From the NCBI RefSeq assembly GCF_007655255.1, contig NZ_VMYE01000002.1, forward strand, positions 62,001 through 126,000: a stretch of 64,000 nucleotides of DNA. Direction: 5' to 3'. Within the stretch, counting starts at the first letter, position 1. Every line of letters begins with the position of its first letter. Shown in pieces: positions 40,244 through 58,594 of the stretch. The translations under genes were made by a program, and so were the position numbers. This stretch comes from Extensimonas perlucida. Its GTDB lineage: Bacteria > Pseudomonadota > Gammaproteobacteria > Burkholderiales > Burkholderiaceae_C. The notes beneath the pieces are model-generated. The model did not search any database, was not told the origin of the DNA, and saw only the letters and a list, made by a program, of their open reading frames with translations.

Positions 40244-41463
40244 GCGCCGTACAGAACGACCTCATCCTGGTGCTGAACTGCGGTTCCTCGAGCATCAAAT
40301 TCGCGCTCTACGACGCCGCCGTGCAGCCACTGCCGCGTGCGCCCTGGTGGGGCGGCAAGGTCGAAGGCATCACCGGCGCGCAGCCGCAGTGGAGCGAGAA
40401 CGGACAGGCGCCACAAGCGCTGCAGCTGGACGCCAAGGCGCCCTACCACGCGGCGCTGGAGCACATCCGCGCGCGCGTGCGGGCTTTTCTGCGGCAGCAC
40501 TGCGCGGGCCGCGGCATCGGCGTCGTGGCGCACCGCGTGGTGCATGGCGGCAGCAAATACTTTGCGCCCGTGCGCATGGACGCGGCCGTGCTTGCCGACC
40601 TGCGCAGCTACATTCCGCTCGCGCCGCTGCACCAGCCGTTCGCGCTCGAGGCCATCGAGGTGCTGCTCGCGCACCCCGAGCTGCCGCAGGTCGCGGTGTT
40701 CGACACGGCCTTCCACCACACCCTGCCCGAGGTCGAAAAAATGCTGCCCTTGCCCTATTCGGCCTGGGAGCGGGGCGTGCGCCGCTATGGTTTTCATGGC
40801 TTGTCGTACGAATACCAGTCGCTCGCGCTGGCCGAGCGCTACGGCGCGGCCGCACGCGGGCGCACCATCGTCGCGCACCTGGGCAGCGGCGCGAGCCTGT
40901 GCGCCATGCAGGACTTGCGCAGCGTGGCCACGACCATGGGCTTTTCGGCGCTCGACGGGCTCATGATGGGCACGCGCTGCGGCGCGCTCGACCCCGGCGC
41001 GCTGCTGTACCTGATGGAGATCGAAAAACGCACGCTCGCAGAAGTCGGCCACATGCTCTACCACGAGTGCGGCCTGCTGGGCGTCTCGGGCGTGTCGGCC
41101 GACCCGCGTGAGCTGCTGCCGCTCGAAGGCGGCAATGCGCGCGTGCAGGCGGCGCTCGCGCTGTACGTGCGGCGCATCGTGCGCGAGATCGGCGCGCTCG
41201 CTGCCGTGCTCGGCGGCCTGGACATGCTGGTGTTCACCGCGGGCATAGGCGAACACAACGACACCTTGCGTGCGCGCGTGTGCGCCGGGCTCGCCTTTTT
41301 GGGCGTGGCGCTCGACGCCCAGGCCAATGCGCGCCACGCGCCTTGCATCTCGAGCGCGGCAAGCCGCGTGCGCGTGGCCGTCGAGCCCACCAACGAAGAG
41401 TGGATCGCCGCCTGGCACGCCGCGCGCCTGCTGCAAGACGGGCCCGGGGCTCAGACGCTGTAG
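40240..41463 (+). CDS. ackA: Acetate/propionate-type kinase
   Basis: 407 residues of the acetokinase family. Motifs: LNCGSSSIKFALYD at the N-terminus, VAHRVVHGG, the catalytic region FHGLSYEY, HLGSGASLCA, and the C-terminal FTAGIGEHN. It makes ATP from acyl phosphate. The ATG overlaps the phosphotransacetylase stop, so the two act as a pair. The last 13 bases overlap the stop of the convergent dioxygenase gene. Confidence 0.93.
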   Translation: MSAVQNDLILVLNCGSSSIKFALYDAAVQPLPRAPWWGGKVEGITGAQPQWSENGQAPQALQLDAKAPYHAALEHIRARVRAFLRQHCAGRGIGVVAHRVVHGGSKYFAPVRMDAAVLADLRSYIPLAPLHQPFALEAIEVLLAHPELPQVAVFDTAFHHTLPEVEKMLPLPYSAWERGVRRYGFHGLSYEYQSLALAERYGAAARGRTIVAHLGSGASLCAMQDLRSVATTMGFSALDGLMMGTRCGALDPGALLYLMEIEKRTLAEVGHMLYHECGLLGVSGVSADPRELLPLEGGNARVQAALALYVRRIVREIGALAAVLGGLDMLVFTAGIGEHNDTLRARVCAGLAFLGVALDAQANARHAPCISSAASRVRVAVEPTNEEWIAAWHAARLLQDGPGAQTL

Positions 41464-41945
41464 ATATCGAGCACGGTGTCGATCAGGTCGTTGAGCACCA
41501 CGATCTTCTTCCTGCGGATCAGCCAGCTGCCTTCGTGCGGTGCGAGCAGGTACTCATAGTGGCCGTAAAAAAGCTGCGTAGCAGCGTTGCGGAACAGGTG
41601 CGTGAGGAAGTTCGCCTTCACGCTGCAGCTGCCATCGGCCTGCAGCACGGGGCGCACGTTGCTCACCGTGTGGCAGGTGCGCGGCAGCGGAATGGAGGCC
41701 GCCGAGCGCCCCGTGCGCAGGCGGTACACGCGGTCTTCGAGGCCCGTGCGGTTCGGGTAATACATCAGCGAGACCGCGCTGCGCGGGTTGTCCACGAGCT
41801 CGTATTCCGAGTCCCACGACGGAATCCAGTATTCGGCCTGGGCATCGAACAGGGCGAGCCAGTCGTCCCAGCGGCGCTCGTCGACGCACTCGGCTTCGCG
41901 GTACAAAAAGGCGCAGACGCTTTGCTGCAGTTCTGTGGCGTTCAT
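41451..41945 (-). CDS. Aromatic ring-hydroxylating dioxygenase small (beta) subunit, copy 2
   Basis: 164 residues of the SnoaL/NTF2-like beta subunit family. It starts with the usual acid-helix (ELQQSVCAFLYREAECVDERRWDDWLALFD) and has the RVYRLRTGRSA and SVKANFLTHLFRN stretches. The beta subunit holds the alpha trimer together. It is 34 bp downstream of alpha subunit copy 2 and clearly its partner. The substrate is unknown. Confidence 0.9.
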   Translation of the reverse strand: MNATELQQSVCAFLYREAECVDERRWDDWLALFDAQAEYWIPSWDSEYELVDNPRSAVSLMYYPNRTGLEDRVYRLRTGRSAASIPLPRTCHTVSNVRPVLQADGSCSVKANFLTHLFRNAATQLFYGHYEYLLAPHEGSWLIRRKKIVVLNDLIDTVLDIYSV

Positions 41946-41979: not shown

Positions 41980-43299
41980 TCATTCGGCCTGCATGAGCTC
42001 GAGCCAGCGCTGGTGCTGGGCGACGAAGATGCCCTCGTCGGACACGCGCACGCCGCTGCTGGCGGGGTGTATGCCCAGGGCTGCGGCGTCGGCGTCGGCG
42101 CCCACGATTTCGTGCGCGGCGCCGCGTGTCATGTCGCTCCAGCGCATCACGTCATGGTTTTCGCAGCCGATCTGCGAGGCGTTGAATTCGGTCAGGTCGT
42201 CGGGCGTGGCCATGCCCGAGGCGTTGAAGAAGTCCTCGTACTGGCGGATGCGCTTGTCGCGCTCAGCCGGCGCCTCGCCCACGGGGCCGAAGCAGTAGAT
42301 CGTGACTTCGGTCTTGTTCGCGGCGATCGGGCGGAACACGCGGATCTGCGTGCCCATCTGGTCCATGATGAACACGTTCGGGTAGACGAGCAGGTTGCGC
42401 GAGCGCAACACGGCCCACTTGGCTTTCTCTGCGCCCAGGCGCGCCTCGATGTCTGCGCGCGCGGCATAGACGGGCCTGTCCTGCGGGTTGGTGATGTCGG
42501 TCCAGATCACCGTGTGGCCGTTTTTCAGGTCGTAGTAGCCGCCGCGGTTGCGCGTGAAGTCGCCCACCGCGAGCACTTTCATGCCCTTGCTCTCGGCATT
42601 GATGCGCGCGCGGTTCTTGATCATCTGCACGTAGTTCGCATGCACCGTATCCACGTGGTAGCCATCGACGCCATTTTCGACCTGCAATTTCCAATTGCCG
42701 TCGTAGGTGTAAACCGAGCGGCCCGGGAGCACTTCGAGGCCTTGCGGGGATTGATCGACCACCAGGTCGAGGAAGGTCTTGCTCTCGGCCAGATGGTCTT
42801 CGAGTGGCTCGGCGTCGGGGTTGAGCGTGGCAAACAGGAAACCGCGGTAGCTTTGCAGGCGCACTTTGACGAGGCCGCGCTTGCCTTTGTCGAAGTCGCT
42901 CGGGTAGCCGGCGCCGTCTTGGTTCATCACCGACAGCAGATCGCCCTTGGCGTCGAAGACCCAGCCGTGGAACGAGCACGTAAAGTTGTTCACGCTGCCC
43001 TTGGAGGTGCGCGCCAGCGTCGCGCCGCGGTGCGAGCAGATGTTCACGAAGGCGTTGAGCGCACCGTTCTTGTCGCGGTTCACCACGATGGGCGTGCGCC
43101 CGATCCACGCGGTCAGGTAGTCCTTGGGCTTGGGCAGCTGACTTTCGTGGGCCACGTAGACCCAGATTTTTTGCCAGATTTTTTTCTGCTCGAGCTCGAA
43201 CAGTTCTTCATCGACAAAGATGCGTCTATCGACCGCGCGCAGCGCGTCGCGCTCGTGGTGCACGCATTCATCGAGCAGGGATTGGGGGGCGGCGTCCAT
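41980..43299 (-). CDS. Rieske non-haem iron dioxygenase large (alpha) subunit, copy 2
   Basis: 439 residues. The Rieske 2Fe-2S ligands are C88, H90, C108 and H111 (ICSHRG, CSFHGW). The mononuclear iron site has H215 and H220 in NGVDGYHVDTVH, with the Asp further on. The overall pattern is that of benzoate/anthranilate-type dioxygenases. It adds both atoms of oxygen to an aromatic ring. It follows a PdxA-family gene by 59 bp, as in terephthalate clusters. No ferredoxin or reductase gene is nearby. The start at 43299 gives the family N-terminus. Confidence 0.92.
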   Translation of the reverse strand: MDAAPQSLLDECVHHERDALRAVDRRIFVDEELFELEQKKIWQKIWVYVAHESQLPKPKDYLTAWIGRTPIVVNRDKNGALNAFVNICSHRGATLARTSKGSVNNFTCSFHGWVFDAKGDLLSVMNQDGAGYPSDFDKGKRGLVKVRLQSYRGFLFATLNPDAEPLEDHLAESKTFLDLVVDQSPQGLEVLPGRSVYTYDGNWKLQVENGVDGYHVDTVHANYVQMIKNRARINAESKGMKVLAVGDFTRNRGGYYDLKNGHTVIWTDITNPQDRPVYAARADIEARLGAEKAKWAVLRSRNLLVYPNVFIMDQMGTQIRVFRPIAANKTEVTIYCFGPVGEAPAERDKRIRQYEDFFNASGMATPDDLTEFNASQIGCENHDVMRWSDMTRGAAHEIVGADADAAALGIHPASSGVRVSDEGIFVAQHQRWLELMQAE

Positions 43300-43358
43300 G
43301 GCAAGTCTCCTTTGCTTGAGGGGGAACGAAAAACGGGTGGGGCGCAAGACTCTCAGCC

Positions 43359-44354
43359 TCAGTCCAGCGCCGGAAAGCCACGCCCCGCGGCGAGCGAGGC
43401 GGCGGTGAGGATGGCGTTGAGCAGCATCGAGTGGTCGGCCACGCCGCGGCCCACGATGTCGTAGGCCGTGCCGTGCGCCACCGTGACGTGCGGGTAGGGC
43501 GGGCCCACGACCACGGCCACGTTGCCCGCGAAGGCCGCGGTCTTGATCGCGATGTGGCCCTGGTCGTGGTACATCGCGAGCACGATGTCGTAGCGCCCCT
43601 CGATGCAGTGGCGAAACACCGTGTCGGGGCTGATCGGGCCGCGCACGTCCAGGCCCGCGGCCTGCGCGCGTGCGATGCCGGGCAGCATGCGCTCCTCTTC
43701 GGGGCCTTTGGCGTGCGGGTTGAAGCCCGCCACCGCGATGCGCGGGCGCGCCAGGCCCCAGCGGCGCAGCACCTCGTGCAGCGTGCGCACGGCGGATTCG
43801 ATGAGCTCGGCCGTGATGAGCGCGGACACGTCGCGCAGCAGCACGTGGTCGGTGAGGTGCGCCACGCGCAGCGGGCCCGAGACGAGCAGCAGGTAGCTCT
43901 CGCCGGGCTTGGCCTGCACCACGCGGTCGAGCACGCCGGCCATGTCCATGGCCACCGAACTGATAGGCGCCATCACGGTGGCCTGCAGCCGGCCCGCGCG
44001 TGCAAAGGCATCAGCCTCGTCGAGCCAGACCGCCGAGGCGCGCCCGCAGGCTTCGTTGTCGCGCCCGGGCGTGACCAGTGCAGGGTCGAGCGCGCCCGAG
44101 TCGAGCACGTCGAGCGCATCCGCGCCGCCGCGCAGCTCTTCGGGCGCAGCCACGGTGCGCACGCGCACGGGCAAGCCGAGCTGCGCCGCGGTCTGCTGCA
44201 GCACCGCGGCGCTGCCGATGGCGACGGGTTGGCACACCGCCTGCAGCCGGCCGCTCGCCCAGGACTTGAGCAGCACCTCGGGCCCTACGCCGCAAGGGTC
44301 GCCGATCACTACGCCCACGCGCGGCAGTTCGGCAGTTGTGTCAGAAGAAGTCAC
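43359..44354 (-). CDS. PdxA-family dehydrogenase (dihydrodiol decarboxylating type)
   Basis: 331 residues. The opening GVVIGDPCGVGPEVLLK matches PdxA (GDPAGIGPE), and the metal-site segments DHVLLRDVSALIT and AMYHDQGHIAIK are kept. PdxA proper makes the pyridoxal precursor, but paralogues such as TphB oxidatively decarboxylate carboxylated cis-dihydrodiols. The place directly before a Rieske pair favours that role. The start is GTG at 44354 with GGAG 6 bases upstream; a TTG at 44366 is the only earlier option. Confidence 0.88.
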   Translation of the reverse strand: MTSSDTTAELPRVGVVIGDPCGVGPEVLLKSWASGRLQAVCQPVAIGSAAVLQQTAAQLGLPVRVRTVAAPEELRGGADALDVLDSGALDPALVTPGRDNEACGRASAVWLDEADAFARAGRLQATVMAPISSVAMDMAGVLDRVVQAKPGESYLLLVSGPLRVAHLTDHVLLRDVSALITAELIESAVRTLHEVLRRWGLARPRIAVAGFNPHAKGPEEERMLPGIARAQAAGLDVRGPISPDTVFRHCIEGRYDIVLAMYHDQGHIAIKTAAFAGNVAVVVGPPYPHVTVAHGTAYDIVGRGVADHSMLLNAILTAASLAAGRGFPALD

Positions 44355-44450
44355 GGCTAACTCCAAAAATGAAAACGGGGAAAGGCCAAAAACGCAGGCT
44401 TCATGGGCGTGACGTTTGCTATTAAATTGATTGCGAAAAATAGGTGGTCA

Positions 44451-44508: not shown

Positions 44509-45525
44509 TCATGGACTTTCTGGCGTGCGTCCAAGCCAGCGCAAAGCGTTGCCCTGGCGCAGCGCCTGCTGCGCGGCGGCGTCCAGCGCCAGCGCGGCCA
44601 CGCGGCCCACCGGGTCTTTGTCCATGATCGCGAACGGGTAGTCGCTGCCCAGCATGATCTGGCCGAGGCCAAAACTCTGGATCAAAAAGGCGATGCCGGC
44701 CGCGTCATAGACCAGGTCGTCGTAGAACATGCTGCGCGCTGCCGTGCGCGGCGCCACGGGCATGGCCTGCTGCAGCGGCGGGAACTGCTCCCAGGCATGC
44801 TGCAGGCGCGGCAGCAGCTGCGCGAGCGTGCCGCCGCCGTGGCTGAAGGCGATGCGCAGGCCCGGATGGCGCGCAAGCGTGCCGCCGGTCAAAAGCGAAG
44901 CGGCCGACAGCCCCACCTCGCCCGGAAACGCGAGCGCCTGCTCCAAAATCGGCGGGCCGACCAGCCTGTCCATGCCCGCGGGGCGCAGCGCGTGCACGAA
45001 GATGGCCGCGCCCCAGCGCTCTGCCGCCGCAAAAAACGGCTCGAAGCGCGCGTCGCCAATGCTCACGCCGTCGATGTTGCTGCCGATCTCGACGCCCGCG
45101 AGGCCGCACTGGTGCACGGCGTGGTCGAGCTCGTCGATCGCGCGCTCCACGTCCTGCAAGGGCACGGCGCCCAGGCCGACGAAGCGCGCAGGCGCCTGCT
45201 GCACCATGCCTGCGATGCTCTCGTTCAAATAGCGCGTGAGCACCTGCGCGTCGGCGCCATCCAGCCAGTACGAGAGCAGCTCGGGCATGGGCGAGAGCAC
45301 CTGCTGGCCGACCTGCATGGCGTCCATGTCGGCCAGGCGCACCTGGCAGTCCCAGCACTGGTGCGACACGGTGCGATAGACCTTGCCGTCCAGCATCACG
45401 TGCTTGTGGCAGGGCTGGGCATCGGCCATGCTGGGCCAGCGCACGCCCAGGCGCTGCCCCAGGTAGGGCGGGAATTCGGCCGGAACGACGTGCGTGTGCA
45501 CGTCCATGCTTGCAAAAGTGCTCAT
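44509..45525 (-). CDS. Amidohydrolase family 2 protein (ACMSD/resorcylate-decarboxylase-like)
   Basis: 338 residues of the TIM-barrel family that contains 2-amino-3-carboxymuconate-6-semialdehyde decarboxylase and gamma-resorcylate decarboxylase. Metal-site motifs: H10 and H12 in DVHTHVV, the mid-barrel HALRP, the FSHGGG segment, and the late GSDYPF Asp. It probably performs a non-oxidative decarboxylation or hydrolysis in the ring-degradation pathway. The ATG overlaps the TetR stop, so both are on one transcript. It is the last gene of the alpha1 group. Confidence 0.85.
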   Translation of the reverse strand: MSTFASMDVHTHVVPAEFPPYLGQRLGVRWPSMADAQPCHKHVMLDGKVYRTVSHQCWDCQVRLADMDAMQVGQQVLSPMPELLSYWLDGADAQVLTRYLNESIAGMVQQAPARFVGLGAVPLQDVERAIDELDHAVHQCGLAGVEIGSNIDGVSIGDARFEPFFAAAERWGAAIFVHALRPAGMDRLVGPPILEQALAFPGEVGLSAASLLTGGTLARHPGLRIAFSHGGGTLAQLLPRLQHAWEQFPPLQQAMPVAPRTAARSMFYDDLVYDAAGIAFLIQSFGLGQIMLGSDYPFAIMDKDPVGRVAALALDAAAQQALRQGNALRWLGRTPESP

Positions 45526-46301
45526 ACGGCAGCGGGCCTGTGGGCAGACGGGGTTTCGGGCGGGGGTTCGGACTGTTGTGCCGCAGAAGAGGGCGGGCGC
45601 GAGGGCGGTGCGGTGCGCCCGCTGGACGGGCGGTTTGCGAGGTACCTGCCCAAAATCTCCACCCACAGGCGCAGCAGGCGCTGCACCTGCGCGGGGTCTG
45701 GCGCCCACAAGTGGCGCACGCCAAAGCCGCGCACCAGGCTCACGGTGAGCAGCAGCAGGTCTTCGCTGAGCTCGGCGCTCAGGCCCAGCTCCTCGATCAC
45801 GGCGAGCCACTGCTGCTCGACCGGGCGGCGGTAGTTGTGCACCACGGCCACGGCGGTGTCCTTCAGGGCCGGGTCTTTAGCACCCGCGAGCAACAGGTCC
45901 AGGCCCACGGCGAAGCAGTCGCTGAAATAAAACGCCTGCGTGTCCTTGAGCAGCGCCTGAGCCGGATTGCCCGAATGCCGTGCGCTTTCGGCCAGGCGCA
46001 GGCCGTCGGCCAGAGCGATGCCAAACACGTGCTCCATGGCCGCCGTGACGAGTTCGAGCTTGCTCGGGAAATGGTGTACCAGCGCCCCGCGCGACACCCC
46101 GGCGCGCTGCGCGACCTCGGGCGTCGTGAGCCCGACGAAGCCGCGCTCCTTGAGCACCGCGAAGGCCGCGTTGAGGATGCGCCCGCGCGTCTCGTCGCTG
46201 CGCATGGCCTGCGTGCGGCGCGGCTTTTGGGCTGCGGCACGCGGTTTGCGGCGTGGCGCGGCGGGGGTTTCGGGGTTCTGCGGCGCTGGCATGGTGCTCA
46301 T
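45522..46301 (-). CDS. TetR family regulator inside the aromatic operon
   Basis: 259 residues. A 45-residue basic, proline-rich extension precedes the HTH (RGRILNAAFAVLKERGFVGLTTPEVAQRAGVSRGALVHHFPSK). The C-terminal domain is a helical ligand-binding domain. It sits between the SDR and amidohydrolase genes on the same strand and overlaps the latter, so it is probably made with the pathway and controls it. The start at 46301 lies 25 bp after the SDR stop; an in-frame ATG at 46358 would overlap the SDR gene. Confidence 0.88.
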   Translation of the reverse strand: MSTMPAPQNPETPAAPRRKPRAAAQKPRRTQAMRSDETRGRILNAAFAVLKERGFVGLTTPEVAQRAGVSRGALVHHFPSKLELVTAAMEHVFGIALADGLRLAESARHSGNPAQALLKDTQAFYFSDCFAVGLDLLLAGAKDPALKDTAVAVVHNYRRPVEQQWLAVIEELGLSAELSEDLLLLTVSLVRGFGVRHLWAPDPAQVQRLLRLWVEILGRYLANRPSSGRTAPPSRPPSSAAQQSEPPPETPSAHRPAAV

Positions 46302-46326
46302 GGAAAAGGCAAGTTTGCTCGGTGGG

Positions 46327-47127
46327 CTAGCCGCGCATGGTGCTGCCGCCGTTGACACTGATCACCTGCCCGGTCACGAAAGCCGCTTCGGTCGAAGCCA
46401 CGTAGCTGACCATGGACGCGACCTCGGCCATTTCGGCCGCGCGCCCCATGGGGATGATGCTGACGAAGCGCTCGACCAGCGCAGGGTCTTTTTCGGCGAT
46501 CTCCACGAGCTGCGGCGTGCGCACCGCGCAGGGGGCGACCGTGTTCACGGTGATGCCGTCGCGCGCGAACTCGCGCGCCAGGCCCGTGGTCAGGCCGTGT
46601 GCGCCGCCCTTGGCCGCGTTGTAGGCCGCGTGCGCCCACAGGCCGCTCATGACCGAGTCCGCGCCGATGATGATGATGCGCCCGTAGCGCTGCTGTTGCA
46701 TGGTCGGCAGGGCCGCGCGGCAGCACCACAGCACCGTCCAGAGGTTGCGGTCTATGGTCTGCTTGAGCGTCTGCGGCGTGTGTTCGAGAAAGGGCAGGAT
46801 CACGCCGCCGCCCGCGTTGTTCACGAGGATGTCTATGCGCCCGAAGGCGTCGCGCGTGGCCTGCATCAGCGCCTCGGCCGTGGCCTCGAGCGACAGGTCG
46901 CCCGCGGCGGTGATGACCTCGGCGCCGGTGGTGCGCACCGCGGCGGCGCTGGCTTCGAGCCCTGCGGCATCGGCATCGGCGAGCGCCAGGCGGGCGCCGT
47001 CGCGCGCCAGGCGCAGCGCGATCTCGAGCCCGATGCCGCGCGCCGCGCCCGTGACCACGGCCACGCGGCCCGCGTGCGGCTGCGCCTTGAAGGCCCAGTC
47101 CTGCCCCGAAGATGTCACCGTGCTCAT
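46327..47127 (-). CDS. Short-chain dehydrogenase/reductase (probable cis-dihydrodiol dehydrogenase)
   Basis: 266 residues, classical SDR. Cofactor motif TGAARGIG (about 26), NNAG, active-site Ser in GADSVMSG and YNAAK (Tyr/Lys), ending SVNGGSTMRG. The acidic residue after strand 2 (ADADAAG) suggests NAD. Next to a Rieske dioxygenase and an extradiol dioxygenase it most likely turns the cis-diol into a catechol. That role is inference. It overlaps the extradiol gene by 4 bases. Confidence 0.88.
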   Translation of the reverse strand: MSTVTSSGQDWAFKAQPHAGRVAVVTGAARGIGLEIALRLARDGARLALADADAAGLEASAAAVRTTGAEVITAAGDLSLEATAEALMQATRDAFGRIDILVNNAGGGVILPFLEHTPQTLKQTIDRNLWTVLWCCRAALPTMQQQRYGRIIIIGADSVMSGLWAHAAYNAAKGGAHGLTTGLAREFARDGITVNTVAPCAVRTPQLVEIAEKDPALVERFVSIIPMGRAAEMAEVASMVSYVASTEAAFVTGQVISVNGGSTMRG

Positions 47128-48035
47128 GCGGCCTCCTGGCGTTCGATCTGGCCGACCTTGCCGAAGGCTGGCTTGGGCAGACTGCCCCAGGTGTCGAGCG
47201 CGAGCGGATGCGGCTCGAGCATGCGCGGCTCGCGGGCGCCTTTTTCGGGGAACTCCTCCATGCCGAAGCTGTATTCGATGGTCATGCCGTCGGGGTCGAG
47301 GAAATACAAGAAGATGCTGCCCGAGGGCATGTGGCGCCCCGGCCCGAAGACGATGGGGATTTCGGCCTTTTGCATGCGGTTCATGGCGCGGCCGATGTCG
47401 TCGATGTCGCTGACCATGAAGTTCACATGGTTCAGGTGGTTGCCGCCTTGCGAGCGCCCGATCGCGAAGCTGTGGTGGAACGGATTGGGCTGGCAGCGCA
47501 TGAAGGCAAAGTGCCCTTCGACGAAGTCCGAAATCGCAAAGCCGAGCTGCGCGTGCAAAAACGCCGCCATCTCGTCGAAGCGCTCGACCGAGAGCACCAC
47601 GTGCCCCAGGCGCGCGATCTTGGTCAGGCGCTGCTGGAAGGGCACGGCCATCTGCTGCATGCGCGTGTAAAGCTCCATGGTCAGGCCCGAGTGCGGCTCG
47701 ACGAAGCGCAGGCCGTCGCCCTGGCGCAGCAGGGCGCGCTCCTCGGCGCCGATGTCGTGCACGGCCAGGCCCAGGCTTTCGAGGTGCTTGCGCGCGTGTT
47801 CGAGCTCGGCGCGGCTTTCGAGCTCGAAGCCCACGCGCTTGACGCCCGGCGCCGCAGCCGGGTAGAGCACCATGTTGTGGTGGTCGGTGCTGCAGCGCAA
47901 AAATGCCGGCCCGCCGGGCACGCGCTCGGTCAAGTCCAGCCCCACGAGTTCGGTGTAGAACTTGGTCGAACGCTCGATGTCGGTGACGTTCAAGGCCACG
48001 TAGCCGAGCTTGCGGTAGCGAAAAGGAATGCTCAT
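47124..48035 (-). CDS. Type I extradiol ring-cleavage dioxygenase (VOC superfamily)
   Basis: 303 residues with two vicinal-oxygen-chelate domains. The iron ligands are visible in the second domain: H145 (RLGHVVLS), H203 (NHLNHVNF) and E254 (DGMTIEYS), the spacing seen in BphC/catechol 2,3-dioxygenase. It opens a catecholic ring next to the hydroxyls. It starts 12 bp after the beta1 stop and overlaps the SDR gene. The natural substrate is not evident. Confidence 0.92.
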   Translation of the reverse strand: MSIPFRYRKLGYVALNVTDIERSTKFYTELVGLDLTERVPGGPAFLRCSTDHHNMVLYPAAAPGVKRVGFELESRAELEHARKHLESLGLAVHDIGAEERALLRQGDGLRFVEPHSGLTMELYTRMQQMAVPFQQRLTKIARLGHVVLSVERFDEMAAFLHAQLGFAISDFVEGHFAFMRCQPNPFHHSFAIGRSQGGNHLNHVNFMVSDIDDIGRAMNRMQKAEIPIVFGPGRHMPSGSIFLYFLDPDGMTIEYSFGMEEFPEKGAREPRMLEPHPLALDTWGSLPKPAFGKVGQIERQEAA

Positions 48036-48047
48036 GGCAGTGCTTTC

Positions 48048-48536
48048 TTACAACAGGATGCTCACGCGCCCTTGCGGACGCAGCGATTCGAGGTCGAGCA
48101 CGCAGCGCTTGCTGCGGATCTTGAGCGCGCCGTCGGCGCCGCGCACCAGCGTGTAGTCGGTGCTGCCCACGTAGGTGTCGGTGAAGCCGTCCTTGCTGCG
48201 GTAGGTGACGAAGGCGGCGTTGACCTGCGCGCTGTCGGCGCTGCGCGCGAGGATGCGCACGTTGCTCACGAGGTGGCGCGTCTTGGAGCGCGGCTGCTCG
48301 GAGACGGCCATCTTCTTGTTCAGGCGCTTCACGCGCTCGCTGAGCCGGAAGGCGTCGTCGGCGATGTAAAACAGGCTGCTGTCGGGGCTGGCGTCGCGCG
48401 GCAGGTCGGTGGCGGGGACTTCGTAGCGCGCGTCGGCGGTGTAGAGCGCAAGCCAGTCGTCGAGCCGCCAGTCGTCGAGCAGCGCGGCTTCGTGGTAGAG
48501 AAAGTCTTCGACTTCGGAGCGGGTCAGGTTTTGCAT
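48048..48536 (-). CDS. Aromatic ring-hydroxylating dioxygenase small (beta) subunit, copy 1
   Basis: 162 residues, same family as the copy at 41451-41945 (opening RSEVEDFLYHEAALLDDWRLDDWLALYT). Its ribosome site GGAGG lies 8 bases before the ATG and was originally joined to the stop codon of alpha subunit copy 1. An IS630-type element now separates the two by 1.1 kb. The beta gene and the four genes after it have therefore lost their native upstream link. Confidence 0.9.
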   Translation of the reverse strand: MQNLTRSEVEDFLYHEAALLDDWRLDDWLALYTADARYEVPATDLPRDASPDSSLFYIADDAFRLSERVKRLNKKMAVSEQPRSKTRHLVSNVRILARSADSAQVNAAFVTYRSKDGFTDTYVGSTDYTLVRGADGALKIRSKRCVLDLESLRPQGRVSILL

Positions 48537-48548
48537 GGGCTGCCTCCT

Positions 48549-49666
48549 TATTGATTCGGCCCTTGTGCACTTGAATTTATCTGCACCGCCCCCAACTCGG
48601 ATTCATGCAAGCAACTGACATGAGATCGTTGAGCCGCGAAGCGCGGCATGAGCGCCGGGTTCAGGTCATCCGGCTACGCAAGGCCGGCAACACCTACGAC
48701 AAGATCGCCGCGCTCACCGGCCTGAGTCGCACAGGCGTCTTCAACATCTGCAAACGCCATGAGGCGCTCGGTGCCAAGGCGCTGCACGACGCCATTGGCG
48801 GGCGCAAGCTCGGCGAAAACCGCTTGCTCGACCCCGCCCAGGAGGCCCTGGTGCGCAAGCTCATCGCCGACAAGACGCCCGATCAGCTCAAGATGCCCTA
48901 CGCGCTGTGGACCCGCGCCGCTGTGGCCCAACTCATCGAACAGCGCTTTGGGCTGCGACTGCAAGTGCGCACCATGGGCAAGTACCTGGCGCGCTGGGGC
49001 TTCACGCCGCAAAAGCCGATGAAGAAGGCCTACGAGCAGTCACCGGCGGCGGTCAAGAAGTGGCTCGACGAGGACTACCCCGCCATTGCCGCGCGGGCCA
49101 AGGCCGAGGGAGCCGAAATTCACTGGGGCGACGAGAGTGGACTGCGCAGCGACGATGTACGCGGCCGTGGTTTTGCGCCCAAGGGCCAGACGCCGGTGGT
49201 GCGGGTCAACAACAAGCGCCACAACCTGTCGGTCATCTCCACCGTGACCAACAAAGGGCAGATGCGCTGGCGCATCTTTGACGGGGCGCTCAACACCACA
49301 ATCCTGATCGACTTCCTGCGCCGGCTGATCAAGGGACAGACCAAGAAGGTGTTCCTGATCCTGGACAACCTGCGGGTGCATCATGCCAAACCGGTCAAGG
49401 CCTGGCTGGCCGAGCATGCCGATGCCATCGAGGTGTTCTACCTACCGAGCTATAGCCCGGAGTTGAACCCGGATGAGATGGCCAATGCGGATATCAAGCA
49501 GGCGGTCACGAAGCTGGCACCGGCGCGAACGAAGCTGCAACTGGCCAAAGCCACAGCCAAGCACCTTCGCAGCGTGCAACGCCAGCCCGAGCGCATCCGC
49601 AAGTACTTCGAGCACGCCACGGTACGCTATGCGGCTTGAGTCAAGTTCATTGAGGCCGGATCAATA
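48549..49666. mobile_element. IS630-family insertion sequence with TA target duplication
   Basis: The element proper is 48551-49664 (1114 bp). Terminal inverted repeats of about 26 bp: left TTGATTCGGCC...ACTTGA, right complement TTGATCCGGCC...ACTTGA. TA dinucleotides flank both ends (48549-48550 and 49665-49666), the IS630/mariner signature. It carries one intact transposase gene. It interrupts the stop codon of the Rieske alpha1 gene; the flanks rejoin to TAAGGAGGCAGCCCATG, which restores alpha1 stop, ribosome site and beta1 start. Confidence 0.92.
48605..49639 (+). CDS. IS630 family transposase
   Basis: 344 residues. An N-terminal HTH (RRVQVIRLRKAGNTYDKIAALTGLSRTGVFNICKRH) is followed by a second winged domain and a DDE catalytic core: Asp in HWGDESGLRSDD, Asp in LILDNLRVHHAK, Glu in YSPELNPDEMAN. 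The frame is intact, so the element may still be active. It is transcribed against the aromatic operon. Confidence 0.95.
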   Translation: MQATDMRSLSREARHERRVQVIRLRKAGNTYDKIAALTGLSRTGVFNICKRHEALGAKALHDAIGGRKLGENRLLDPAQEALVRKLIADKTPDQLKMPYALWTRAAVAQLIEQRFGLRLQVRTMGKYLARWGFTPQKPMKKAYEQSPAAVKKWLDEDYPAIAARAKAEGAEIHWGDESGLRSDDVRGRGFAPKGQTPVVRVNNKRHNLSVISTVTNKGQMRWRIFDGALNTTILIDFLRRLIKGQTKKVFLILDNLRVHHAKPVKAWLAEHADAIEVFYLPSYSPELNPDEMANADIKQAVTKLAPARTKLQLAKATAKHLRSVQRQPERIRKYFEHATVRYAA

Positions 49667-50947
49667 GTTCTTCTGCTGGGCTTCGTTCAAACGGCTCAGG
49701 CGCTTGTGCCATTCGGTCCAGAAGGCGCGCATCTGAATCTCATCATCCGCGGCGGGTTGCGGCCTGCCCATGCCTTTGGAGATGTCGTTCCAAGGCACTT
49801 CCTGCAGGTTGTTGAAGCCCGCCTGGCATTGCTGCAGCGCCTCGACGTCGTCGGGCGTGGCAAAGCCGCCGGGGCCGAGGAATTCGAGAAAGCTCTCGAG
49901 GCGCGACTTGCGTGCCCATTCGCCTTCTTCAGCCGGCGCGAGCGCCCAGGCATTCACGTGCAGGTGGTCGGGCGCGAGCGGGTAAAACGTGCGCACCGTG
50001 ATCGCCATGATGTCGTTGATGATCAGGTTCGGGAAGATCAGCAGATTGCGGTTTTTGAACGCGATGCGCTGCGCGCGTTCGGCGCCAAAGCGTTCCGTGA
50101 GGCGCGCGATGATCTTGTCGATGTCGGCCTTGCCCTGCTCGCCCCAGGCCGGAATCCACTGCCCGATCGGGCGGCCCCAGGGCGCGGAGTATTCGATCAC
50201 GCCGTGGCCGTTGCCCAGGTCGCGCCCCGCGCCTTCGATGCCGACGGCGGCGAGCGCACCTGCCGTGCCCTTGAGGTAGTCGAGGTAGGTGGCGTGCGTG
50301 GTGGCGGCGTGGTAGCCGTCTATGCTGTTTTCGACCAGCAGCTTCCAGTTCGCACGCATGCTGTATTCCTGCGTGCCGCCGACGATGGTCATGCCCGCTT
50401 CAGACTGGTCGGCCACGAGGTCTATGTATTCGCGCGCCTGGCCCAGGTAGGTGGGCAGATCGACGATGTCCTTGTCGAACGAGACGAAGTGAAAGCCGCG
50501 GTACTCCTCGTGGCGCGGCGCGGGCGTCAGGTCGGCGCCGCCTTGCGCGTTGAAGTCCGGCGCATACGAGGCCTGGCCCGGCTGCTCGCGCAGCTTGCCC
50601 GTGGAGTGGAACACCCAGCCGTGGTAGAAGCACAAAAAGTTCTTGGCCACACCCGAGCGCTCGCGGCACACCGTGGCGCCGCGGTGCGGGCAGGTGTTCA
50701 TGAGCGCGTTGATGCGCCCGTCGGTGTCGCGGTTGAAAATCAGGCGCCGGCCCGCCACGGTGCGCGTGACGAACTGCCCAGGTTTGGCAATCTCGGAGGC
50801 GTGGCCCAAGTAGAGCCAGCAGCGGTCGAAAATCGCCTGGCGCTCGGCCGCCACGACGTCCGGATCGACGAACGAGGCGCGCGGCACCTTGAAGAGCTGG
50901 CGTGCGGGGTCCACCAGCAGCTTGATGCTTTGCGAGAGGTCTTTCAT
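49661..50947 (-). CDS. Rieske non-haem iron dioxygenase large (alpha) subunit, copy 1
   Basis: 428 residues. Rieske ligands C86, H88, C106 and H109 (CPHRG, CFYHGW); mononuclear iron His at H213 and H218 in [12 protein letters not shown]. The start at 50947 ([10 protein letters not shown]) has a GGAG-type leader. The IS630 insertion in the original TAA stop changes the end to ...QQKNY-stop, adding one Tyr, so the enzyme itself should be unharmed. It heads the group alpha1-beta1-extradiol-SDR-TetR-amidohydrolase. Confidence 0.92.
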
Positions 50948-51286
50948 TGGTCTCCTCATTTCTTTTGTGAATGCCCTTGCCCATCCTGAGGATGCAAGCA
51001 AGCATCGACTGCGCGCACAAAACAAACAGAACTGACTGTTTTTTGCGCGCAAGCAGGCTTTGGTGAAAGGGCAACCGCAGCGATGCTGTGGTTGCCGGCA
51101 TTTTTGCAAAATATCGACAGACGGCGCATTAAGGATAACCCTAGGTTTTCTTGAGATTTTCACTGGATGTTTATCGCTGCGCTGCGCACGTCTATGGGCA
51201 AACGGCCGCAGCACGCGCAGCCATGCGCCATTTCATGGCACCATGCTGCCCCTGTTTTGCGCCGTTTTTCATAGGAGACACCTGCC
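50948..51286. promoter_or_regulatory. Divergent control region with two large inverted repeats
   Basis: 339 bp between the Rieske alpha1 and quinone oxidoreductase starts. Inverted repeat 1 spans 51010-51051 (TGCGCGC...ACAG, centre, CTGT...GCGCGCA; imperfect). Inverted repeat 2 spans 51070-51096 (GGCAACCGCAGC-GAT-GCTGTGGTTGCC, one mismatch) and is followed by CATTTTTG. Either could be the TetR operator; repeat 2 also resembles a plus-strand terminator. GGAG precedes ATG 51287. No further gene is visible. Confidence 0.6.
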
Positions 51287-52270
51287 ATGAGCCTTGCCGT
51301 CCAGATCCGCCAGCCCGGCGGTCCCGAAGAACTGCAGATCGTCGATGTGCCCGTGGGCGAGCCCGGGCCCGGCGAAGTGCGCATCCGCCACCACGCCGTG
51401 GGGCTGAACTTCATCGACGTTTATCACCGCACCGGCCTGTACCCGCTGCCGCTGCCCGCCACCATAGGCATGGAAGGTGCGGGCGTGGTCGAGGCCGTGG
51501 GGCCGGGTGTGACGCACCTCGCCGTGGGCGAGCGCGTGGCCTACGCCGGCCAGCCGCCCGGCAGCTACTGCGAGCGCCGCGTGATGCCGGCGCAGTGCGT
51601 GTGCAAGCTGCCCGACGGCATCAGCTTCGAGACCGGCGCGGCCATGATGCTCAAGGGCCTGACGGCGCAATATCTGCTCAAAAAAGTGCGCCCCGTCGAA
51701 GGGCTCGCGCCTGGCGACCATGTGTTGTTTCACGCGGCCGCGGGCGGCGTGGGCCTGATCGCGTGCCAGTGGGCCAGGCACCTGGGCCTGCAGCTGATAG
51801 GCACGGCGGGCACAGACGCCAAATGCCAGCTCGCGCTCGCCAACGGCGCGGCGCACGCGGTCAACTACAACACCGAGGACTTTGCCGCGCGCGTGCGCGA
51901 GATCACCGGCGGCAAGGGTGTGAAGGTGGTGTACGACTCGGTGGGCAAGGACACCTGGGACAAGTCGCTCGACTGCCTGCGCCCTTTCGGCCTGATGGCC
52001 AGCTTTGGCAACGCCTCGGGCCCGGTGCCGCCGTTTTCGCCGGCCATTTTGGGCGCCAAAGGCTCGCTTTACGTCACGCGCCAGACGCTGTTCACGCACA
52101 TCGCCACGCGCGAGAGCACGCAGGCCATGGCCGATGACTTGTTTGCCGTGGTGCAAAGCGGCGCCGTGAAGATCCACATCGAGCAGCGCTACCCGCTCGC
52201 CCAAGTGCAGCAGGCGCACCGCGACCTCGAAGCGCGCAAGACCACGGGGTGCACGATTTTGACGCTGTGA
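51287..52270 (+). CDS. Zinc-independent quinone oxidoreductase (MDR superfamily)
   Basis: 327 residues. GroES-like N-terminal domain (GPGEVRIRHHAVGLNFIDVYHRTGLYPLPLP) and a Rossmann domain with AAAGGVGLIACQWARHLG. Structural zinc cysteines are missing, as in NADPH:quinone reductase QorA. It could reduce quinones formed from catechols. It is divergent from the dioxygenase operon and may share its control region. Confidence 0.92.
   Translation: MSLAVQIRQPGGPEELQIVDVPVGEPGPGEVRIRHHAVGLNFIDVYHRTGLYPLPLPATIGMEGAGVVEAVGPGVTHLAVGERVAYAGQPPGSYCERRVMPAQCVCKLPDGISFETGAAMMLKGLTAQYLLKKVRPVEGLAPGDHVLFHAAAGGVGLIACQWARHLGLQLIGTAGTDAKCQLALANGAAHAVNYNTEDFAARVREITGGKGVKVVYDSVGKDTWDKSLDCLRPFGLMASFGNASGPVPPFSPAILGAKGSLYVTRQTLFTHIATRESTQAMADDLFAVVQSGAVKIHIEQRYPLAQVQQAHRDLEARKTTGCTILTL

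Positions 52271-58503: not shown

Positions 58504-58594
<91 letters not shown>

Follow-up and report, generated by a model that had tools for sequence, protein, structure and literature searches.

An insertion sequence of the IS630 family separates the two subunit genes of a Rieske oxygenase in Extensimonas perlucida, and this is very probably an ordinary, recent insertion at a YTAR site that happened to coincide with the large-subunit stop codon. The complete 1114-bp element occupies positions 48551 to 49664 of the window, the 64,000-nucleotide stretch of contig NZ_VMYE01000002.1 analysed here, to which all coordinates refer unless another contig is named. It sits between the genes for the large subunit, alpha1, and its small subunit, beta1, which are now 1.1 kb apart. 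A sequence-only reading had located the insertion at 48537 to 49670; the element is indeed there, although that span is slightly too wide. In the proposed course of events, a cut-and-paste IS630 element would have arrived recently in this lineage and inserted at the TA of a YTAR site formed by the TAA stop of alpha1.

The element is bounded by imperfect terminal inverted repeats (left, 48551-48574, plus strand; right, 49641-49664, minus strand), in which 18 of the 24 outermost bases are identical, as is typical of the IS630 family. Copies of the TA target flank it at 48549-48550 on the beta1 side and at 49665-49666 on the alpha1 side, the latter being the first two bases of the presumptive former TAA stop; this duplication had been recognized earlier, and TA likewise lies on both sides of all 16 retrieved copies from Xenophilus (described below), in keeping with the family. 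The transposase gene (48605-49639, plus strand) is an intact frame of 344 aa, and its product scores 239.4 bits against NCBIfam NF033545 (transpos_IS630; cut-off, 100), which upholds the family assignment of the sequence-only reading. It also matches Pfam HTH_33 and DDE_3, the latter with candidate residues D176, D254, and E291 chosen by eye in the motifs GDES, LDNL, and NPDE. With one transposase gene, terminal inverted repeats, and a duplicated TA target, the element resembles ISY100 and IS630 of the Tc1/mariner superfamily; one account of ISY100 transposition in vitro gives TA insertion with duplication in 34 of 39 products (PMC2170065).

The interrupted operon is transcribed leftward, and all nine of its genes besides the transposase are open frames on the minus strand. 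Alpha1 (49661-50947), whose best-scoring solved relatives are the alpha subunits of naphthalene and biphenyl dioxygenases, is followed beyond the element by beta1 (48048-48536; Pfam Ring_hydroxyl_B), a VOC-superfamily (extradiol dioxygenase-like) gene (47124-48035), a short-chain dehydrogenase (SDR) gene (46327-47130) whose stop, TAG, likewise forms a YTAR site, a TetR-type regulator (45522-46358), and an Amidohydro_2 gene (44509-45567). For alpha1, SDR, and the amidohydrolase we chose a start codon inside a longer open frame, and with these starts the genes from beta1 to the amidohydrolase are tightly spaced (gaps of 12, -7, -32, and -46 nt), which fits the earlier proposal that beta1 and four downstream genes are affected as a block. 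Three further codirectional genes lie beyond a 142-nt gap and code for a PdxA-family dehydrogenase (43359-44366), a second Rieske large subunit, alpha2 (41980-43347), and a second small subunit, beta2 (41451-41945). All four oxygenase subunits fall short of NCBIfam cut-offs. The combination of two Rieske oxygenases with extradiol-like VOC, SDR, Amidohydro_2, and PdxA-like proteins suggests that the gene set serves the breakdown of an aromatic acid. Elsewhere in the window, a tRNA-Ser (CGA) at 58505-58594 is the only tRNA and the only Rfam match at the gathering threshold.

Read in the operon direction, alpha1 now ends AAC TAT TGA and, because the IS end supplies the TGA, its product is extended only by a single tyrosine (...KNY), just as had been predicted. 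At the other end of the element, TA AGGAGGCAGCCC ATG leads into beta1, with the beta1 frame and the AGGAGG ribosome site between TA and ATG both intact. Deletion of the element and one TA in silico yields AAC TAA GGAGGCAGCCCATG, and by deduction from this rejoined sequence the stop codon of alpha1 before the insertion was probably TAA. Insertion into the alpha1 stop codon, the central claim of the sequence-only reading, thus holds, with the TAA itself deduced.

Relatives of alpha1, sought at E ≤ 1e-110 among 399 genomes drawn from the family, are present in three: the genome itself, G001 of the same genus (96% identity), and G295 (77%). The search for an empty site that had been suggested earlier therefore has a divided outcome, with IS-free alpha1-beta1 junctions in G001 and G295 but the predicted TAA in neither. 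The G001 junction reads AAT GAA GGAGGCAGCCCATG, with GAA at the position expected for TAA, so that alpha1 reads through and overlaps beta1 by 13 nt; in G295, alpha1 ends in TGA and 14 bases separate it from the beta1 ATG. The two genes are also annotated as overlapping, by 4 bases, on a Pseudosulfitobacter plasmid with a 63% identical alpha subunit, and the pair is thus adjacent or overlapping in all three. The restored TAAGGAGG junction envisaged in the sequence-only reading is found in neither G001, which has GAA, nor G295, which is different there, and the IS-free junction of this species may be either TAAGGAGG or GAAGGAGG. IS630 insertion requires TA, and the lineage therefore probably carried TAA where G001 has GAA.

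The operons of G001 and G295 share the order alpha1-beta1-VOC-SDR-TetR-amidohydrolase-pdxA with the window, although both lack the IS and carry, between pdxA and alpha2, an additional Rieske alpha-like match that is absent here; in G295, SDR and TetR are also separated by about 1.2 kb. The interval from pdxA to alpha2 is only 11 bp in the window (43348-43358), whereas in G001 (L050, 9003-10837) it spans about 1.8 kb and contains one match of Rieske alpha type (27% to alpha1) and one of beta type (30% to beta1); the alpha-like match in the G295 interval is at 26%. From this comparison, the window genome seems to have lost the extra oxygenase.

The element is also found outside this genus. A contig scan for encoded relatives gave 157 stretches, of which the best 80 loci were kept, and among these 80 are at least 16 copies in Xenophilus sp. 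Marseille-Q4582, all 1114 bp long with identical ends and with 99.6 to 99.9% DNA identity. Six of the 16 differ from the window copy by a single mismatch in 1114 bases, and the Xenophilus copies are the same element, although at least 16 are present there compared with one full-length copy here; three other matches in the window genome are partial. This near identity points to recent spread between genera. Two of the Xenophilus copies (L070 and L077) have a common right flank, and the left flanks of two others (L078 and L080) resemble each other, which suggests that copies inserted into repeats or recombined with one another. Matches to the transposase protein occur at E ≤ 0.001 in 25 of 100 relatives, with the genome itself counted, and a megablast search of a plasmid collection with the IS returned three records, each spanning less than 80% of the query. 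Candidatus Protistobacter heckmanni POH1 accounts for 34 of the best 80 loci (L109-L147), at roughly 65 to 78% protein identity, a marked expansion of IS630 elements within a single genome.

These loci also define the target of the element. Left ends could be placed for 73 of the best 80 loci and right ends for 77, with TA beside 68 and 74 of them, respectively. Sixty-one loci have TA at each end and sufficient flank, and 48 of these lie at YTAR; the remaining 13 fit on one side. Among the Xenophilus copies, YTAR is used in 14 of 16, compared with 60 of 590 TA dinucleotides in the rejoined flanks (insertion sites counted; p = 1e-12). The title of a 1991 paper by Tenzen and Ohtsubo reportedly names CTAG for IS630, and compared with the target so named for IS630 itself, the YTAR preference seen here is looser. 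TAA and TAG stop codons that follow a pyrimidine are YTAR sites and therefore suit this IS. The 8,381-bp empty operon contains 94 TA dinucleotides, only seven of which are in YTAR, and the stops of alpha1 and SDR are among the seven.

Landing in the alpha1 stop is compatible with YTAR preference alone. The alternative that insertion into stop codons is an evolved trait of this IS group, with ends (TA and then N-TGA) that close the upstream frame harmlessly, has some attraction in that the IS end here reads TAT TGA, and TGA is found at positions 2 to 4 of 64 of 73 left and 63 of 77 right ends, counts that are biased upward by a search pattern containing TGA with three mismatches allowed; binding by the transposase alone already predicts conserved ends. 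Stop codons also look enriched relative to all TA sites (2 of 36 insertions versus 19 of 2,378; p = 0.04), which YTAR preference can account for. Relative to other YTAR sites, stop codons are not significantly enriched in the window and Xenophilus (2 of 17 versus 4 of 91; p = 0.24; a small sample) or with 19 more loci added (2 of 36 insertions versus 6 of 243; p = 0.28), and targeting of stop codons was rejected on these grounds as a quite improbable explanation. A modest extra bias toward stop codons would fit within these few sites.

The insertion sites were classed with gene calls from a simple codon-usage caller, which are crude. Two of the 17 sites (the window and 16 Xenophilus copies) are in stop codons, six are inside genes, and nine are intergenic, and the corresponding numbers for all 36 are 2, 6, and 28. 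The caller places all 19 added insertions between genes, missing many genes there: it marks 31 to 43% of the added loci as coding compared with 77% for Xenophilus and the window, and the 17-site test is preferred for this reason. Forty-five loci were tried besides the window, 10 of which were dropped for want of two clear TA-flanked ends or for a short right flank, and these tests took in neither the 34 loci of Protistobacter nor locus L138 of Cupriavidus. The window makes up a large part of the background, and the sites are not all independent since flanks are shared or similar in the L070/L077 and L078/L080 pairs.

An assembly chimera, in which a repeated IS has been misplaced at the alpha1-beta1 junction, is the least credible of the explanations considered. 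The genome is a draft in 50 contigs, and its three partial relatives of the IS are situated at or close to the ends of contigs, which would lend themselves to such an error, but the genome holds only one full-length copy, the TA duplication is clean, and the flanks on both sides are parts of a single operon, the genes of which stand in the same order in G001 and G295. An ordinary recent insertion thus remains strongly favored.

For expression of the operon, a transcript from alpha1 would now have to cross 1.1 kb of untranslated antisense transposase sequence, and translational coupling of alpha1 to beta1 would be lost, so that expression of beta1 and the genes beyond it is probably lower. From established knowledge of polarity, this reduced downstream expression is the likeliest consequence and is predicted with somewhat better than even confidence; polar silencing of the downstream block is a plausible prediction. 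Terminator-like stems number four in the scan versus 3.1 expected by chance, and the operon strand carries just one of them, a weak stem within the IS (49277-49260), so that readthrough may be substantial.

It is improbable, if less so than stop-codon targeting, that the insertion has rewired the operon so that a promoter in the left end of the IS now drives beta1 and the genes after it. The arrangement would permit this, as the beta1 start is 12 bp away from the TA at that end, its ribosome site has been preserved, and the transposase and beta1 are divergent. However, a consensus scan of 48400-51300 detected no sigma-70-like promoter, and the best outward score with a rough promoter matrix of rounded frequencies was 3.76, below the median of 4.97 for shuffled sequences (first-order Markov resampling). 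The matrix test is weak and has little power here, because the sequences ahead of alpha1, qor, and the transposase scored no better than shuffles either. An outward promoter was accordingly dropped as a candidate, having shown nothing above shuffled sequence in this weak test, and the earlier suggestion of a promoter in or near the IS gains no support from these low-power scans. It is also highly unlikely that the insertion is a selected regulatory mutation that alters the alpha:beta subunit balance of the first oxygenase, rather than damage.

The insertion is a record of a mobile element spreading recently across genera, and the apparent aim at a stop codon can be expected of a YTAR-preferring element where the DNA is GC-rich. 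One of the two Rieske oxygenases of this strain may be less active, which would bear on the prediction of aromatic breakdown from gene content alone.
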